This document shows positions 1 through 17,037 of a stretch of 40,599 nucleotides of DNA, piece after piece. A program made the translations under genes and the position numbers. Below the pieces are notes generated by a model, which had not been told where the DNA came from, searched no databases, and saw only the letters and a program-made list of their open reading frames with translations. The stretch's first letter is position 1. The number at the start of each line of letters is the position of its first letter. This DNA comes from Methanolinea sp. (GTDB lineage: Archaea > Halobacteriota > Methanomicrobia > Methanomicrobiales > Methanospirillaceae): positions 1-40,599 of the forward strand of contig JASEES010000046.1 of NCBI GenBank assembly GCA_030019395.1. The letters run 5' to 3'.

Positions 1-1453
1 CCAGCCAGTTGATGCTCTCACCTGATGGTTCTGATGCAGAAATATCGCGGGTTAATATGAAATATATCCTCTTTCCCTTATTTTTCTGGACTGCTTCTTC
101 CAATTCCCTGATATTGGACGCTCCAAACTGCGTTGTATTATCCATCGATGGATTGTAATAATAATTGAACGGGTAGTGCAGATAAGCAGGTAACAGGATT
201 ACAACATCTCCATCGTTCGTGTTTTTTTCAAATTCATGTGAAAAATCCCGCCAATTCTCTTTTGTATAGACCATGTGAGTGGTTATCAGGAGAGGAACAT
301 GTACTAATGCTATTCCAATAATCATAATGATGACAACCATCCTCTTTTTAAAAATATGGCAGAATATACGTGTCGAATACGCAATTCCCAAAAACAGGAA
401 AGGTATCATGATATAAAAAAACCTTAATTCAAAAGGCATCTTAAAAGAAACGAAATAACTAATTATGAGGATAGTCACAATTCCAAAAAATAAAAATATT
501 CCTTTTTTCCTCTCTTCAAAGAGACACCAGATAACCCCGATAATGAAGAATATTGACAGGATTCCAACAAGAAGGAGATCACCTCCCAATAGAGCAGGTA
601 TGGCATAAATAAGGACTATAATCCCACTGAATCCATAGGTTGGACTTTCAGCAGTTCTCTTCAAAAATAAGTCGAATGTGACAATTATCAAGGGAAGTGT
701 AACAACAATGAAAGAAACCAAAAATATTCCGAGATTCTTCACATATTCTTTCTTTTCCTCCTTATCGAAAATGATGAGAAATAGGCCAAAGAAAAGGAGG
801 AACCCCGTGATTATTGCCGTATAAAAATGCGTCCATAATGCCAGTCCGGAAAAAACTCCACAGAGAACCCAATGAGACACGAGGTTGCGTTGATATCCCG
901 TGAAAAAGAAAAGGATAGCAAGAGAAACAAATAATAAAGCAAGACTATATGCCCTTGCTTCCTGGGAATAGTAGATTAAAAAGATTGAAAATGTCGCGAG
1001 AGTGGCACATATTAAACCAGAATTCTTATCCCTGAACTCTTTCCCCAGCAGGTAAAAGACGGGTATCAGGAGTGTCCCGGCAAGCCCGGGAATTGTTCTC
1101 AATATTGCTTCGGAATTCCCAAAACGGAGCATGAGAGACTCGAGGAAATAGAAGAGGGGGGGGTTAAACTCAGTCCCTGTTTCAAGGGATCTCCAGAGTT
1201 CAGAGTAGGGTAGGGAGGCAAAGTGGTATGTCACTGCTTCGTCAAGCCAGAGGGAATTGAAACTAATATTTGAAAATCTCAATAAAAAACCGGTTAATGT
1301 AAGAAGAACCAGGATTTGTACATATCTGTCTTTCATCAGGGAGGAGGTAATGCCCTGAGTGGACCATGTGAAAGAATCCGGCGGGTTTGTATTCAAATCA
1401 CATGGATTTTCCGTCTTTTTTTCAACTCCTGAACGTCCCCTTCTACCTGCCAT
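1..1453 (-). CDS. GT39/ArnT-like membrane glycosyltransferase, C-terminus beyond window
   Basis: The frame is open from an ATG at 1453 to the left edge (about 484 codons), so the 3' end is missing. After a polar N-terminus of about 45 residues comes a chain of hydrophobic segments typical of a polytopic membrane protein. The first loop holds LWLDEA, the acidic motif of GT39/PMT/ArnT-type enzymes, which move a sugar from a polyprenyl-phosphate carrier to an acceptor outside the membrane. Later segments include QEARAYSL and WTHFYTA, also typical of this group. A TATA-like CTTTATG about 27 bases upstream suits a leaderless transcript. Base composition is much more AT-rich than downstream genes, which suggests a variable or transferred surface-glycosylation region. 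Donor and acceptor cannot be told from sequence. Confidence 0.85.
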   Translation of the reverse strand, partial: MAGRRGRSGVEKKTENPCDLNTNPPDSFTWSTQGITSSLMKDRYVQILVLLTLTGFLLRFSNISFNSLWLDEAVTYHFASLPYSELWRSLETGTEFNPPLFYFLESLMLRFGNSEAILRTIPGLAGTLLIPVFYLLGKEFRDKNSGLICATLATFSIFLIYYSQEARAYSLALLFVSLAILFFFTGYQRNLVSHWVLCGVFSGLALWTHFYTAIITGFLLFFGLFLIIFDKEEKKEYVKNLGIFLVSFIVVTLPLIIVTFDLFLKRTAESPTYGFSGIIVLIYAIPALLGGDLLLVGILSIFFIIGVIWCLFEERKKGIFLFFGIVTILIISYFVSFKMPFELRFFYIMIPFLFLGIAYSTRIFCHIFKKRMVVIIMIIGIALVHVPLLITTHMVYTKENWRDFSHEFEKNTNDGDVVILLPAYLHYPFNYYYNPSMDNTTQFGASNIRELEEAVQKNKGKRIYFILTRDISASEPSGESINWL

Positions 1454-1459
1454 GACATG

Positions 1460-1570
1460 CTATAATGAATCGGATTTCATAAAGATATCCAATTTTTTAT
1501 TCTCCCGGCTTTTTGAAGGATAATCTTTGAGAACCTCATCGACTTGGTTCAATAGGATACTTTCCTTCAT
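1460..1570 (-). CDS. Possible 36-residue protein, unrecognised
   Basis: This short frame starts with an ATG that overlaps the TGA of the upstream desulfidase/deoxyribosyltransferase gene (ATGA), just after a GGAGGTGA sequence. It ends 6 bases before the glycosyltransferase start. The product is lysine-rich and probably helical, with no motif I recognise. Coupling and the Shine-Dalgarno-like sequence argue for translation. Against it, GGAGGTGA is also the natural coding sequence for the last residues of the upstream gene (LEVK), and the 3' half contains the probable TATA element of the glycosyltransferase. It may be a real small protein, a gene remnant or chance. Confidence 0.3.
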   Translation of the reverse strand: MKESILLNQVDEVLKDYPSKSRENKKLDIFMKSDSL

Positions 1571-7532: not shown

Positions 7533-8555
7533 ATGATCAAAGTTGCCATCAACGGGTACGGGACGATTGGAAAGCGCGTTGCCGATGCAGTGGCTGCCCA
7601 GCCCGACATGAAAGTGGTGGGGGTATCCAAGACGAGACCAAGCCACGAGGCGTTCGTGGCAAAGTCCAGGGGTTACCCGCTCTATATCGCCGATCTCTCC
7701 AGGAAGGATACCTTCGAGAAGGCCGGTCTGCCTGTCGCAGGGAGCGTCGAGGACATGCTGAAAGCTGCAGATATCGTGGTGGATGCAACGCCGGGCGGTA
7801 TCGGGGAGAAAAACAAGCCACTCTACGAGAGAGCCGGTGTGAAGGCCATCTGGCAGGGTGGAGAGGAGCACGAGGTTGCCGGATTCTCCTTCAATTCCGA
7901 CTGCAATTATACCGAGGCCATCGGGAGACAGTTTGCACGGGTTGTCTCCTGCAACACCACGGGACTGTGCCGCATCATCAACGCAATGGACAAAAATTTT
8001 GGCGTTGAAAAGGTCCGGGCGGTGATGGTCCGGCGGGGCGGGGACCCTGCCGATATCAAGCGGGGGCCGATCGATGCCATCGTGTTAAACCCCGTCCACA
8101 TCCCGAGTCACCACGGGCCGGACGTCCGGAGTGTCCTGCCCCACATCAACATCGTGACGCTCGCGATGATCGTCCCGGTGACGATGATGCACATGCATGT
8201 TGTCCAGATGGACCTGAAAAAGGCGGCCACGCGTGAGGAAGTCATCAGGATCATCGAGAAGAATCCCCGCATGGGGCTTGTCCGGAAGGCCACCGGGATC
8301 ACGAGTACGGCCGAGCTGAAGGAATATGCAATGGACATGGGAAGGCCCCGCTCGGACCTCTGGGAAAACGGTATCTTCGAGGACTCGATCTCCTGCACGG
8401 GCAAAGAACTCTACCTTTTCCAGGCGATTCACCAGGAGGCAGACGTTGTCGTCGAGAACATCGACTGCATCCGGGCAATGACAGGAATCGAGAAGGACCC
8501 TGCAAAATCCATCGCCATGACAAACCAGGCATTGAAATTTGTTGCAATCAGGTAA
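7533..8555 (+). CDS. gap: Type II glyceraldehyde-3-phosphate dehydrogenase
   Basis: 340 residues, the usual length of the archaeal phosphorylating enzyme. The Rossmann motif INGYGTIGKRV (7-17) binds NAD(P), and SCNTTGLCR (139-147) holds the catalytic C140. It interconverts glyceraldehyde-3-phosphate and 1,3-bisphosphoglycerate, in methanogens mainly for gluconeogenesis. The ATG at 7533 follows CCATAT, and the N-terminus MIKVAINGYG is the conserved family start. A T-run at 8562-8567 just after the stop is a plausible terminator. The gene appears monocistronic. Confidence 0.97.
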   Translation: MIKVAINGYGTIGKRVADAVAAQPDMKVVGVSKTRPSHEAFVAKSRGYPLYIADLSRKDTFEKAGLPVAGSVEDMLKAADIVVDATPGGIGEKNKPLYERAGVKAIWQGGEEHEVAGFSFNSDCNYTEAIGRQFARVVSCNTTGLCRIINAMDKNFGVEKVRAVMVRRGGDPADIKRGPIDAIVLNPVHIPSHHGPDVRSVLPHINIVTLAMIVPVTMMHMHVVQMDLKKAATREEVIRIIEKNPRMGLVRKATGITSTAELKEYAMDMGRPRSDLWENGIFEDSISCTGKELYLFQAIHQEADVVVENIDCIRAMTGIEKDPAKSIAMTNQALKFVAIR

Positions 8556-11156: not shown

Positions 11157-11165
11157 ATTATAATG
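11157..11165 (+). promoter_or_regulatory. Probable TATA element of hel308
   Basis: ATTATAATG is the best TATA-like stretch upstream of hel308. A start of transcription about 25 bases on (near 11188) would fall inside the ORB-like site and leave a leader of roughly 10 bases. Confidence 0.5.
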
Positions 11166-11170
11166 AGCTC

Positions 11171-11192
11171 TGTGGAGTGGAAATAAAGGGGT
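11171..11192 (+). promoter_or_regulatory. ORB-like element over the hel308 ribosome-binding region
   Basis: The core GAGTGGAAATAAAGGGGT matches the origin-recognition boxes found at 14.7-15.7 kb, including the G-run end, with only three mismatches in the first five bases of the 22-base box. It ends 6 bases before the hel308 ATG, so its AAAGGGG can also act as the Shine-Dalgarno sequence. It is 4.5 kb from the origin and therefore looks like a satellite Orc1/Cdc6 site or a regulatory site. Confidence 0.55.
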
Positions 11193-11197
11193 TATAA

Positions 11198-13375
11198 ATG
11201 AAGGTAAGAGATCTCCCTCTTCCGGGATACCTTCAGGACATCTATGCCGACCTTGGCATCAATGACCTCTATCCTCCCCAGGCAGAGTGCGTCAATAAAG
11301 GACTCTTCGAGGGAAAGAACATTCTCCTCGCAGTCCCCACTGCAAGCGGAAAGACGCTGGTCGCCGAGATGGCCATGCACCACCATATCTCCCGGGGTGG
11401 GAAGTGCCTCTACATCGTCCCCCTCAAGGCCCTGGCAAGCGAGAAATACGAGGACTTTGCCCGGAAACAGGTCAGGGTAGGTATTTCAACCGGTGACTTC
11501 GACAGACGTGACGAAAACCTCGGGCGGAATGACATCATCGTGGCCACGAGCGAGAAGGTTGACTCGCTGATACGCAACCGTGCACACTGGATACCGTCAA
11601 TCACGCTCCTCGTCGTGGACGAGGTGCACCTCATCGACGAACCCCACAGGGGGCCGACGCTCGAGATGGTTATTACGAAGATGCGGGCAAGAAACGGGAA
11701 CATCCAGGTTATCGCCCTTTCCGCGACGATAGGAAACCCTGGTACACTTGCAGGATGGCTCGATGCCGAGGTGGTGACAGGGTCGTGGCGCCCGGTCGAC
11801 CTCCGCCAGGGGGTCTATTGCAATGGTGCGATCTCTTTTGGCCGGGAAACCCGGAAAGTGCCCCCCGTTTCGAAGAACGAGGATGTCAACCTCCTTCTCG
11901 ACACGGTTGCGGAGGGCGGGCAGTGCCTTGTCTTCGTCGCGTCGCGCAGGAATGCCGAGGCATATGCGAGGAGGGCGGCAGCAGCACTCAAATGCACGGA
12001 CCCGGCTCTCGAAGAGTACGCTGCCCGCTTGAAGAAGGCCGCCCTGACCGGCAACGAGGAGTCCCTTGCCTCCTGCGTTGCCCTGGGTGCGGCGTTTCAC
12101 CATGCCGGGCTCTCCCGGGAGTCCCGGGCAATCGTGGAAGAGGGGTTCAGGAAGGGCCTGATCCGGTGCATCGCTTCCACCCCGACTCTGGCTGCCGGGT
12201 TGAATCTCCCTGCCCGGCGGGTCATTGTCCGGGATTTCCGCCGGTTCGAGGCCGGGCAGGGAATGGTCCCCATCCCGGCCCGCGAGTACCACCAGATGGC
12301 AGGCCGGGCAGGGAGACCGGGTCTTGATCCTTACGGGGAGGCGGTGCTCATCGCAAGGGATACAGAGGAGGCACGGGAACTTGAAGAATTCTACATTAAT
12401 GCCTCTCCCGAGGATGTGCACTCCCGGTGCGCTGACGAGTCCGCGCTGATAACACATATCCTGTCACTGATTGCATCCGGATTTGCCCGGACCCACGATG
12501 ACTTAATCCGGTTTCTGAGGCGGACATTTTACCATTACCAGCACAAGAAGAGCAGCATTCTGGAGGCTGTCACGAAAAAGTCACTTGATTTCCTCGGGAA
12601 GGCGGAAATGATCACGAACCTTGCCGGTCAGCTGGCTGCAACAGAGTACGGAAACCTGGTCTCCCTCCTCTACATAGACCCGCGAGGTGCAGAGACTATC
12701 GTCTCGGGGATTGCTTCGGCAGAAAACTACTCGGATATGGGCCTCCTCCACCTCATCTGCAGCACACCGGACATGTTCTGCCTGTATGTCAGCAACAGGG
12801 ACCTCCCCGTGCTGGAGAGGTACCTGCTCGAGAACGAGGATGAACTCTGGCTGACACTGGGCTTTGGCGAGGAGGAGCCTTTCTTCCGTGCCCTCAAGAC
12901 CGCCCTCGTCCTCCGGGACTGGGCGGGTGAAGTCCCCATCGAGACCATTTGCGAGAGGTACTCCATCGGGCCGGGAGATGTCCATGCCCTCGTCGAGAGC
13001 TGCAACTGGCTCCTCCATGCCGCGAGCCGCCTTTCCTCGTTAAGTGCGCCCCGCTTCACCCGGGCAATCCGCGAGTTCGAGACCTGCATGAAACATGGTG
13101 TCAGGCGGGAACTGCTGCCACTCGTCAGGCTGCGCAATATCGGCCGGGTACGGGCAAGGAGCCTCTATTCCAACGGGATAACGTCTCCGGACGCCATTCG
13201 TGCTGCCGATCCGAGGGTGCTTGCATCCATCCTCGGCCGCGGGATTGCCCAGTCTGTCCTGCAGCAGCTGGAACAGGAAGGTAACGGGAACGGAGACAAT
13301 CGCACAGGGGACGAAGGGGAAGAGAATGGTCTTTACGGCCAGTCGCGACTCGACGCCTTCCACGGGGTAATCTGA
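11198..13375 (+). CDS. hel308: Hel308 superfamily 2 DNA helicase
   Basis: 725 residues, normal for Hel308/Hjm. This 3'-5' helicase unwinds lagging strands at stalled forks. Visible are the Q-motif region YPPQAE, Walker A PTASGKT (47-53), DEVH box (141-144), [27 protein letters not shown], the winged-helix and ratchet domains, and a C-terminal helix-hairpin-helix ([17 protein letters not shown]). After it, an acidic Gly/Asn/Asp/Glu-rich linker leads to QSRLDAFH (715-722), a good PCNA-interacting peptide at the very end. The stop abuts the cgi121 start. Confidence 0.96.
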
Positions 13376-14136: not shown

Positions 14137-14634
14137 TCAATGATCTCTCCTTTTTGCATGCGACACGAGGTGGCGTAATTCCGGAAGAATGATCTCTTTC
14201 ATGGCAAGTGTCACTGCCGGCGTCGACCCCGGAAGGCAGAAGATAATTCTCTCCCCACATGTCCCGGCGAGGGCTCTCGATAAAATTGCTGCCGTGCCGA
14301 TATCTGCATAACTTTTCTGCCTGAATATCTCTCCAAATCCATCGATTATCTTGTCCAGAACGGGAACCACCGCTTCAATGGTACAGTCATCGGGCGAGAT
14401 CCCCGTTCCCCCGTTGATGATGATGCAATTGCAGTCATCGAGCACCGCATGGAGCTCTCTCCTGATCATCACGATATCATCTTTGACGAGAGAATAATGG
14501 AGAACGGGTATATTTTCCCCTTCCAGGAGGGATAGGATAGCCTTTCCACTCCCGTCTGTATCCCTGGTCCGCGAGGTGGACACGGTGATCACTGCCGCCC
14601 TGATGTCCACGGGTTTTTCGTGTTCTTTTTTCAT
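14137..14634 (-). CDS. moaB: MoaB/MogA-family molybdenum cofactor protein
   Basis: 165 residues. The family adenylylates molybdopterin before metal insertion. Hallmarks are AVITVSTSRTRDTDGSG (14-30) and NGGTGISPDD (74-83), the molybdopterin-binding loop, followed by LSRALAGTCGERIIFCLPGSTPAVTLAM. CAGGTAA just before the ATG at 14634 may be a weak ribosome-binding site. The gene faces away from the origin region. Methanogens need tungsto- or molybdopterin for formylmethanofuran dehydrogenase, which fits. MoaB versus MogA cannot be settled by eye. Confidence 0.92.
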   Translation of the reverse strand: MKKEHEKPVDIRAAVITVSTSRTRDTDGSGKAILSLLEGENIPVLHYSLVKDDIVMIRRELHAVLDDCNCIIINGGTGISPDDCTIEAVVPVLDKIIDGFGEIFRQKSYADIGTAAILSRALAGTCGERIIFCLPGSTPAVTLAMKEIILPELRHLVSHAKRRDH

Positions 14635-14718
14635 CGTTACCTGATTCGTTTCTTCGAAAGATTAACAATTTTCCTCTGTGCTGAACGGTTTTTCGACCAC
14701 GATTGAGGACAGGAACAG

Positions 14719-14740
14719 ACCCTCTTATTTCCACTGGAGA
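14719..14740 (-). promoter_or_regulatory. Origin-recognition box 1
   Basis: Read on the minus strand the core is CCAGTGGAAATAAGAGGGT, preceded by TCT. It is an outlying box, 585 bases left of the next, and keeps the dyad-like CCAGTGG part and a GGGT end. Confidence 0.75.
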
Positions 14741-15324
14741 TTGGAAGGTGCCTGTGATGTTTTTTCTGACAGGATACCGTAGATGTCCAACATGGAACCT
14801 GTTCAGGCGAGAGTGCGGGGGTTTTTCTCCGGGACAAGCCTCCCCTCCAAGCTTTATAGATAAGGGTACCAATGGGGGGAGTCACCTGTCCGAGGTGCCT
14901 TCCCATAAAACCCTATACATACAGGGAGTCAGATGAAGCGGTCCACCCTGGAGGACCTGCACCCTCTCCAAATCAGCACATATAAGGGAGAATGTCCCGG
15001 AGCACCGCATTTTTCTGTAACAATGTTACCACAAAGAAAATAGTTTACCAGGATCTCATCAGGTCACTCCAAGGCGCAAATAGAGGTTTCTCTTCGAAGA
15101 GAGAAGACAGAATGCCAACAGAGTGCGTTGGGTCATTATTTTCGTTTAATAAGCACTTCATGAAGATTATTCAGGTGCCAGTCCATCAAAAGGCCGGATA
15201 GTGAAAAGGTCGAAATCAAAGATTCTATATTTTTACATGGTATCTCTATTCAAGTGAGATTTCCTACAATATTTATAGAGTTTTTTGGACTCTGTGATAT
15301 CTATCCATGTTTCAATTCTGGGGA

Positions 15325-15346
15325 ACCCCTTTGTTTCCACTGGAGA
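15325..15346 (-). promoter_or_regulatory. Origin-recognition box 2
   Basis: On the minus strand the core is CCAGTGGAAACAAAGGGGT, preceded by TCT. With the box at 15662 it is the closest match to the canonical archaeal ORB, including the full G-run. It forms the left flank of the AT-rich core. Confidence 0.85.
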
Positions 15347-15529
15347 ATGAAGATGCGATCACTTTTTCCTTGACTTTTTTTATCACATCACTATAGAGTC
15401 ACGGGGTGTTTCATGTATATCCCCATTGAGTTCCGAATCATTTCATTAAGATTTTATAAAAGAAAAGTGGAACATTAAATGACTTGTTCTCCTGTAAAAT
15501 CAACTTCATATTATGAAGTTCACATCCAT
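15347..15529. other. AT-rich candidate duplex-unwinding element
   Basis: This stretch between the two inner, outward-pointing ORBs is AT-rich, with runs such as GACTTTTTTTATCACATC and GATTTTATAAAAGAAAAG. It also contains the perfect palindrome at 15502-15520. Its position between inverted ORBs makes it the likely site of initial melting; that is inference. Confidence 0.6.
15502..15520. repeat. Perfect 9-bp inverted repeat inside the origin
   Basis: AACTTCATA and TATGAAGTT are exact reverse complements separated by one T. The repeat sits 10 bases left of the plus-strand ORB at 15530. It could be a dimeric protein site or extrude as a cruciform. Confidence 0.7.
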
Positions 15530-15551
15530 TTTCCAGTGGAAATAACAGGGT
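15530..15551 (+). promoter_or_regulatory. Origin-recognition box 3
   Basis: The core CCAGTGGAAATAACAGGGT lies at 15533-15551. The first half is identical to the other boxes; the G-run is weakened to AGGGT. It forms the right flank of the AT-rich core. Confidence 0.75.
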
Positions 15552-15576
15552 CCCCCCCTTGAAAGAAATATCCGGG

Positions 15577-15598
15577 ACTCCTGTGGAAACAAACGTTT
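15577..15598 (+). promoter_or_regulatory. Degenerate ORB
   Basis: CTCCTGTGGAAACAAACG keeps most of the first half of the box (one change, CCTGTGG for CCAGTGG) but lacks the G-run. It is like the mini-ORBs seen in several archaeal origins. Confidence 0.45.
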
Positions 15599-15650
15599 TT
15601 CACGTCAGACTAAAATTTTATAAAAATCGATTTTTTCTCACAAGACCCTC

Positions 15651-15658
15651 TTATATAA
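15651..15658 (+). promoter_or_regulatory. Probable TATA element of cdc6
   Basis: TTATATAA is followed after 3 bases by the ORB at 15662. Transcription would start near 15680, inside that box, so Orc1/Cdc6 bound there would be expected to block its own promoter. GGTTTATATC at 15681-15690 is an alternative TATA. Confidence 0.5.
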
Positions 15659-15661
15659 CTC

Positions 15662-15683
15662 TCTCCAGTGGAAATGAAGGGGT
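15662..15683 (+). promoter_or_regulatory. Origin-recognition box 4
   Basis: The core CCAGTGGAAATGAAGGGGT lies at 15665-15683, preceded by TCT, with a full G-run. It is the box nearest to cdc6 and overlaps its probable transcription start. Confidence 0.85.
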
Positions 15684-15753
15684 TTATATCAGGTTCAAAC
15701 AGCTGACTTTTTGAGTATTGGCAGGGATATGATTATCTCCCAGGGGGTCAGGG

Positions 15754-17037
15754 ATGTCAGACGACCAGAGTGCAGCAGTCGGGCTTTTCAAAAAATATCT
15801 GGAGACAAACAGGATATTCAAGAACAGGGAAGTCCTGCGCCATTCCTACAGGCCCCACATCCTTCCCCACAGGCGGCCTCAGATAGACCAGGTCGCAGCA
15901 ATCCTTGCACCCTCCCTCCGGAACGAGACCCCCTCGAATATCCTCATCTACGGCAAAACGGGGACGGGGAAGACAGCGGTCGTCCGTTACGTGGGGTCGG
16001 AACTCGAGACGGCAGGGGGCCACATGGGGATGATTTGCAGGGTCGTGCACCTCAACTGTGAGGTGATCGACACCCAGTACCGTGTTCTCGCGCAGATTTC
16101 AAAGACGCTCCTTGGCGAGGACGAAACGGCAAGCGACAAGGCCCGGACCCACATCCCCATGACGGGGTGGCCGACTGACCAGGTCTATGCCGAACTCAAG
16201 AACCAGCTCGAGGGTATGGGAGGAGTCCTCATCATCGTTCTCGACGAGATAGACAAACTCGTCAAGAAGAGCGGTGACGAAACCCTCTACAATCTCTCCC
16301 GTATCAACTCCGACCTGAAAAAATCCAAAGTGAGCATGATCGGGATCTCGAATGACCTCTCCTTCAAGGACTTCCTCGACCCAAGGGTCCTGTCCTCCCT
16401 CTCCGAAGAGGAACTCGTCTTCCCGCCCTACAATGCCCCCCAGCTCTGTGATATCCTGAAGCAGCGCGCAGAGATAGCCTTCCTCGAGGGAGTCCTCGAC
16501 GAGAGTGTAATACCGCTGTGCGCGGCGCTCGCGGCCCAGGAACACGGGGATGCGCGCCGGGCCCTCGACCTTCTCCGCGTATCGGGAGAGATTGCCGACA
16601 GGGAAGAGGCCAGCCGCGTCACGGAGGCTCATGTGAAGATGGCCCAGGCAAAGATCGAGACGGACTCGATGATTGAGTGTATCGCGACACTGCCCACCCA
16701 GAGCAAGGTCGTCCTCTACGCCATGCTCCTCCTCGACCAGATGGGCCAGACCATCTTCACGAGCGGGGAGGTGAGCAGGATCTACAAGGAGATTGCACCC
16801 TCTCTTGACCTCGATATCCTCACGCACCGGAGGATCACGGACCTCATTTCCGAGCTGAACATGCTCGGGGTCATCAACACCCGCGTGGTGAGCCGGGGTC
16901 GCTATGGCAGGACAAAAGAGATGTGGTTTGATACGAATACACGTAAGATATGGGATGTGATCACCTCGGATGCCCGCTTAAGTGCCCAGGGTATCGCCGA
17001 GAGGGACGTCCAGTGGTGCAGATCCCTTTTCAGGTGA
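15754..17037 (+). CDS. cdc6: Orc1/Cdc6 replication initiator
   Basis: 427 residues. This AAA+ protein binds ORBs, melts the origin and helps load MCM. Walker A is GKTGTGKT (67-74), Walker B is IVLDEIDK (161-168), sensor 1 lies near MIGISNDLSF, the lid has HGDARRALDLLR, and a winged-helix DNA-binding domain fills the last 120 residues (e.g. GVINTRVVSRGRYGR). The ATG at 15754 has CAGGGGGTCAGGG just upstream. The stop region AGGTGA serves as the ribosome-binding site of the following Lrp gene. The gene lies directly beside the ORBs, the typical initiator arrangement. Confidence 0.97.
   Translation: MSDDQSAAVGLFKKYLETNRIFKNREVLRHSYRPHILPHRRPQIDQVAAILAPSLRNETPSNILIYGKTGTGKTAVVRYVGSELETAGGHMGMICRVVHLNCEVIDTQYRVLAQISKTLLGEDETASDKARTHIPMTGWPTDQVYAELKNQLEGMGGVLIIVLDEIDKLVKKSGDETLYNLSRINSDLKKSKVSMIGISNDLSFKDFLDPRVLSSLSEEELVFPPYNAPQLCDILKQRAEIAFLEGVLDESVIPLCAALAAQEHGDARRALDLLRVSGEIADREEASRVTEAHVKMAQAKIETDSMIECIATLPTQSKVVLYAMLLLDQMGQTIFTSGEVSRIYKEIAPSLDLDILTHRRITDLISELNMLGVINTRVVSRGRYGRTKEMWFDTNTRKIWDVITSDARLSAQGIAERDVQWCRSLFR

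Follow-up and report, generated by a model that had tools for sequence, protein, structure and literature searches.

The gene-free gap at positions 14635-15753 of the window (the whole stretch of DNA analysed here, 40,599 nucleotides of a Methanolinea genome) is very probably a chromosomal replication origin (oriC), at which Cdc6 would bind four origin boxes (ORBs), an AT-rich core would open and MCM would be loaded; this high confidence attaches to the origin and not to the candidate hel308 operator treated further below. We adopt this reading because four of the five matches to the box pattern in the genome fall in the array, the boxes match a published motif, the adjoining gene encodes Cdc6, boxes and box pairs recur throughout the order Methanomicrobiales, and the GC skew turns close to cdc6 in three relatives (G004, G007 and G009). 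What is observed comprises the boxes and their inversion, their concentration next to cdc6, their order-wide conservation and, in one congener, a skew minimum at the orthologous position; the array is an ordinary, textbook cdc6-ORB origin of an already known type. Its features are as follows, with box sequences given 5'-3' on their own strand.

14719..14738, minus strand: ORB1, outer box, TCCAGTGGAAATAAGAGGGT, 29.2 bits
15325..15344, minus strand: ORB2, left inner box, TCCAGTGGAAACAAAGGGGT, 36.5 bits, fits the published Methanomicrobia consensus in full
15345..15531, no strand: AT-rich core separating the inner boxes, 187 nt, 67.9% AT, candidate unwinding element
15532..15551, plus strand: ORB3, right inner box, TCCAGTGGAAATAACAGGGT, 27.2 bits
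15579..15598, plus strand: degenerate ORB-like box without a G-string, 9.3 bits, absent from the earlier note
15664..15683, plus strand: ORB4, proximal box, TCCAGTGGAAATGAAGGGGT, 34.2 bits, full match to the published consensus
15683..15689, plus strand: TATA-like run TTTATAT abutting ORB4, candidate cdc6 promoter
15754..17037, plus strand: orc1/cdc6, initiator protein of 427 aa, assigned by Pfam domains, NCBIfam and structure comparison

The gap of 1.1 kb extends from the start of a moaB/mogA-like gene on the minus strand (14137-14634, with the start at 14634 forming the left edge) to the cdc6 ATG at 15754, and its AT content is 58.3% against 42.8% for the whole window. ORFs of at least 25 aa in the gap are short, overlapping or extend into the neighbouring genes, and none of them makes a convincing gene; the one that was tested (14477-14872) has no Pfam match, and Rfam at gathering scores and ARAGORN found nothing over the whole window. 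The earlier note had described an AT-rich, gene-free gap of this size with cdc6 immediately downstream, and four strong repeats in it, two per strand, with the G-strings of the inner pair facing outward around an AT-rich core; both descriptions hold and can be read directly, the inner boxes being inverted (minus, then plus) around the core. Matches to sigma-70-type promoters were discarded as meaningless in an archaeon. At the contig start (window 1-1500), GC is low (0.37-0.41) and there is no ORF of at least 90 aa before 1460.

The Methanomicrobia ORB motif has been published as TCCA[GC]T[GT]GAAA[CT][AG]A[AT]GGGGT (PMC4164010), from which, in the form given there, ORB1 and ORB3 deviate at two positions. 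When the window's own assembly (G000; 1,805,353 bases, 50 contigs, 95.76% complete) was searched with the 20-nt pattern TCCAGTGGAAATAANGGGGT and up to three mismatches allowed, five matches were obtained, namely ORB1-4 and a box at 11173-11192, and the reversed pattern gave 0 matches under the same conditions. A pattern with variable spacing returned the same four boxes, one of them twice in overlapping registers, plus a weak site on contig C7, and its reversed control returned one match. Boxes of equal quality scattered over the genome, which had been named beforehand as evidence against an origin, are therefore excluded in this assembly, with four of the five matches in the array and the fifth 3.5 kb away, and the array is not a product of chance. 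Moreover, with a weight matrix built from 112 of the order's origin boxes, ORB1-4 themselves among them, the four boxes scored 27.2-36.5 bits against a best score of 13.8 in 1.31 Mb of far sequence from four genomes (G004, G006, G024 and G028), in which nothing reached 15 bits. Between ORB3 and ORB4 (window 15579-15625), the sequence TCC(T/A)TGGAAA followed by TTTCAC is largely retained among 11 aligned Methanolinea-like sequences.

The initiator encoded next to the array has the Cdc6 lid and winged-helix domains and falls within the NCBIfam ORC1-type equivalog NF001625. Its nearest solved structures, 2qby_A and 2v1u_A, are both named Cell division control protein 6 homologues, and its nearest named relatives come from Methanolinea and related Methanomicrobiales MAGs (best 99% identity, several at 90-93%). 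A distant cdc6 paralogue with 26% identity lies on contig C45 of the own assembly and may use other boxes, and a second origin could be missing because the assembly is 95.8% complete.

All 41 genomes searched, 40 relatives besides the window's own, contain boxes with at most two mismatches, which add up to 209 against 15 for the reversed control. Among 59 named loci examined out of 79, some of them with less than 2 kb of upstream sequence, 57 have at least one box (up to four mismatches) upstream of cdc6; at the same threshold none lies directly upstream of cdc6 in L074 (Candidatus Methanofilum arcanum) and L075 (another MAG). G013 (L135) also lacks a box directly upstream of cdc6; among the matches listed for it are perfect boxes on two other contigs. 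An adjacent pair of a minus and a plus box within 1.5 kb upstream of cdc6 is present in 31 of 37 genomes, a set that leaves out G013 for its missing box and G001, G014 and G021 for lack of a cdc6 start. The six genomes without such a pair are G025, G030 and four with 345-862 nt of upstream sequence each (G015, G016, G018 and G022).

A turning point of the GC skew at the array had been proposed as a check, and the relatives support it better than the window does. On a 233-kb contig of a congener (G004:C25), cumulative G-C is lowest at position 126,240, which falls between the inner boxes of that contig and precedes its cdc6 start by 312 nt; in G007 and G009 the minimum lies inside cdc6, 0.8 and 1.1 kb from its start. 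Thus, the minimum is within 1.2 kb of the cdc6 start on the contigs of three of five relatives; in the other two it is 8.2 kb off (G006) and 24.5 kb off (G019, where the curve still falls past cdc6). In the window itself the minimum is at 7553, about 7 kb left of the array, and the curve is fairly flat up to about 16.5 kb and then rises steadily. For two relatives whose contigs are long, skew was sampled in 20 stretches each; it was roughly consistent with a turn near cdc6 in G024 and had no clear pattern in G028. The skew of one relative gives strong support for an origin near cdc6, and that of others gives loose support; what counts against oriC is the position of the window's own minimum, the offsets in G006 and G019, the pattern in G028, and the lack of boxes in G013, L074 and L075.

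At the array, Orc1/Cdc6 from the adjoining downstream gene would bind the four ORBs, its monomers would be placed with a set polarity, and MCM would be recruited to the AT-rich core framed by them, which would then open. We infer this course of binding, unwinding and firing because known archaeal origins work in this way, as far as they are described in PMC4010727 and PMC7776575. The same ORB consensus, G-string, AT-rich core and directly downstream cdc6 characterize the single cdc6-adjacent oriC of Pyrococcus and the Methanomicrobia origins predicted in DoriC/Ori-Finder 2 (PMC4010727, PMC4164010); from the origins as outlined in these sources the present one does not differ in kind, and its box number and spacing are those of the window's genus. 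The locus is hence a firm candidate for the start of replication in mostly uncultured methanogens, which is useful for coverage-based estimates of growth rate.

The TTTATAT run is a probable cdc6 promoter, and because ORB4 abuts it, Cdc6 probably damps the expression of its own gene: once on ORB4, it would hinder the basal transcription factors. A TATA-like run within 14 nt after the proximal plus box is found in 21 of 37 genomes, and in the window it follows immediately (GGGGTTTATAT). This arrangement would also suit ORBs that act mainly as operators for cdc6 autoregulation with replication starting elsewhere, but such a role is highly improbable, as a spread over 1 kb, the use of both strands, the conserved inverted pair and the AT-rich core exceed the needs of an operator, such boxes occur at no other place in the own assembly, and the skew of G004 turns inside the core.

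The fifth match in the own assembly precedes a helicase gene and is the feature that may be new:

11173..11192, plus strand: ORB-like box in the hel308 leader, TGGAGTGGAAATAAAGGGGT, 23.6 bits, absent from the earlier note
11198..13375, plus strand: Hel308-family helicase gene, 725 aa, within NCBIfam NF002654 and below the cut-off of NF040935

The wording 'Hel308-family' is used because the protein reaches the family of ATP-dependent DNA helicases (NF002654) and scores below the cut-off of the Hel308 family proper (NF040935). The box ends 5 nt upstream of the hel308 ATG, about 3.5 kb from the array, and is separated by 8 nt from a preceding TATA-like TTATAAT (11158-11164). A hel308 start was available in 42 members of the order; these are not independent cases because they are related, 12 of them belonging to the window's genus. 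Within 60 nt of the hel308 start, a box above the 99% level of a first null is present in 38 of the 42, always on the strand of the gene, and 37 of these 38 boxes are at -24 to -32 and one is at -43; no box above this level was found in G016, G023, G026 and G031. The upper end of the first null held true boxes near cdc6, which raised its 99.9% level to 36.3 bits, and a cleaner null was taken from the 1.31 Mb of far sequence mentioned above. Against the latter, boxes pass the 99.9% level (4.1 bits) in 37 of the 42 and the 99.99% level (10.5 bits) in 31, with the box of G127 lying between the 99% and 99.9% levels; those of several congeners (G002, G004, G008 and G011) are weak, at 4.4-7.2 bits.

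In an alignment of one genome per genus (17 genera with a box), columns of the box carry 1.31 bits on average and those of the left flank 0.15, a contrast that is somewhat favoured by anchoring on the best box and in which one flank column reaches 0.92. At positions 2-3, the hel308 boxes of many genomes depart from the origin consensus, with TGG, TCG, TGC or TAG in place of TCC. Outside the order, no box with up to five mismatches was found in the 75 nt before hel308 at any of ten loci drawn from 96 such genomes, and the approximately 5 kb covered at each of these loci held a single 12.4-bit match elsewhere, in one of the ten (L240).

The box also goes with hel308 independently of its distance from the origin, as seen in four genomes in which the gene has moved, two of them with a weak box. 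In G027 and G032, where hel308 sits 10.8 kb upstream of cdc6, a box of 30.7 bits is found at -24; the hel308 of G007 is about 22 kb downstream of cdc6 with a weak box (10.4 bits) at -25, and that of G004 is about 27 kb away on the other strand, again with a weak box (4.4 bits) at -25.

The leader box is a candidate Cdc6 operator. Our preferred reading, which we hold tentatively and at slightly less than an even chance, is that Orc1/Cdc6 of the Methanomicrobiales is also a transcription factor for hel308: bound to an ORB variant over the start region, often with an altered first half-site, it would hold this fork-repair helicase down until the initiator falls or is released, and so initiation would be coupled to the rescue of forks in a DnaA-like manner. 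Since the box begins 8 nt after TTATAAT, it probably covers the transcript start, which would fit a repressor, and the altered positions 2-3 would suit a weaker site. A link between ORBs and hel308 control was not found by title or abstract in the literature searched, a body with most subscription journals outside it.

Two known systems resemble this reading. Sulfolobus Orc1-2, a regulator of the DNA-damage response, is likewise an Orc1-family protein that acts on gene leaders, but in the account of PMC9738581 it is not an initiator, whereas the hel308 box belongs to the ORB type of the initiator itself. For bacterial DnaA, too, boxes occur at the origin as well as in the leaders of genes, that of the initiator gene among them (PMC8203912); as described there DnaA is a bacterial initiator with other boxes, whereas the target here would be hel308. 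If the reading is true, the hel308 box is an ORB that serves as a conserved gene switch, and it makes directly testable whether an archaeal initiator itself, and not just a paralogue without initiator function like Orc1-2, has control over a gene of replication and repair.

The main rival, which we consider rather unlikely, takes the leader element for a ribosome-binding site or a piece of the core promoter whose likeness to an ORB is incidental, with GGGGT as a Shine-Dalgarno-like motif. This GGGGT ends 4-5 nt ahead of the start codon in many genomes, and it could presumably pair with the tail of 16S rRNA with one wobble. However, TGGAA further upstream is conserved as well, and boxes at -30 (G030, 34.2 bits), -32 (G035, 23.6 bits) and -43 (G142, 31.8 bits) stand at distances unsuited to such pairing, which speaks against a Shine-Dalgarno role as the sole cause. 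Moreover, none of 151 leaders of five other genes reaches the cleaner null's 99.9% level (cgi121 0/40, moaB 0/37, lrp 0/20, aat 0/37 and cobD 0/17; highest 1.5 bits); a single moaB leader exceeds the first null's 99% level.

It is less probable still that the box is an outlying component of the origin, where it would act as a distant ORB in looping or titration and have no link to hel308 function. In most genomes examined the box is indeed only 3.6-5.6 kb from cdc6, several families have other outlying ORBs downstream of cdc6 at about 3.0-3.7 kb from its start, and oriC2 of Haloarcula hispanica is under the negative control of an ORB cluster lying downstream, which likely titrates Cdc6 (PMC3936714). 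The boxes 24-25 nt before the moved hel308 of G027, G032, G007 and G004 argue against such a component, those of G007 and G004 being weak. The oriC2/oriC2D system also has ORBs outside the origin proper and near cdc6; oriC2D as reported there is an intergenic cluster of 11 boxes downstream of cdc6E, whereas the window has a single box in a gene leader, and this box moves with the gene (PMC3936714).

An additional cluster of three ORBs next to purO and cgi is given by Ori-Finder 2 (PMC4164010); this cluster presumably belongs to Haloferax volcanii and adjoins hel308. In the present genomes, further ORBs were observed away from the upstream side of cdc6. In L068, L069 and L144 (G026), 4-5 tandem minus-strand ORBs lie downstream of cdc6, about 3.0-3.7 kb from its start, mostly 177-185 nt apart with one gap of about 283, and recall the Cdc6-titrating cluster oriC2D of Haloarcula hispanica as presented in PMC3936714. 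In L156 (G038), a second inverted ORB pair is placed at about +3058 and +3277 relative to the start of cdc6; such a pair, absent from the window, also occurs downstream of the cdc6-lrp-aminotransferase block in many further loci of Methanoculleus. The stray ORB at C13:17602 of G007 was rejected as a marker of the moved hel308, as it is inside another ORF and the hel308 of G007 is on C29. Ten gene neighbours of stray boxes in G018, G020, G032, G038 and G040 had no common function by Pfam. Among the matches listed, perfect ORBs far from cdc6 are present at G032:C1:323973, G038:C1:459654 and G040:C11:317740 and on contigs C26, C31 and C62 of G018; several of them sit between ORFs, and they are possible second origins or remnants of mobile elements.
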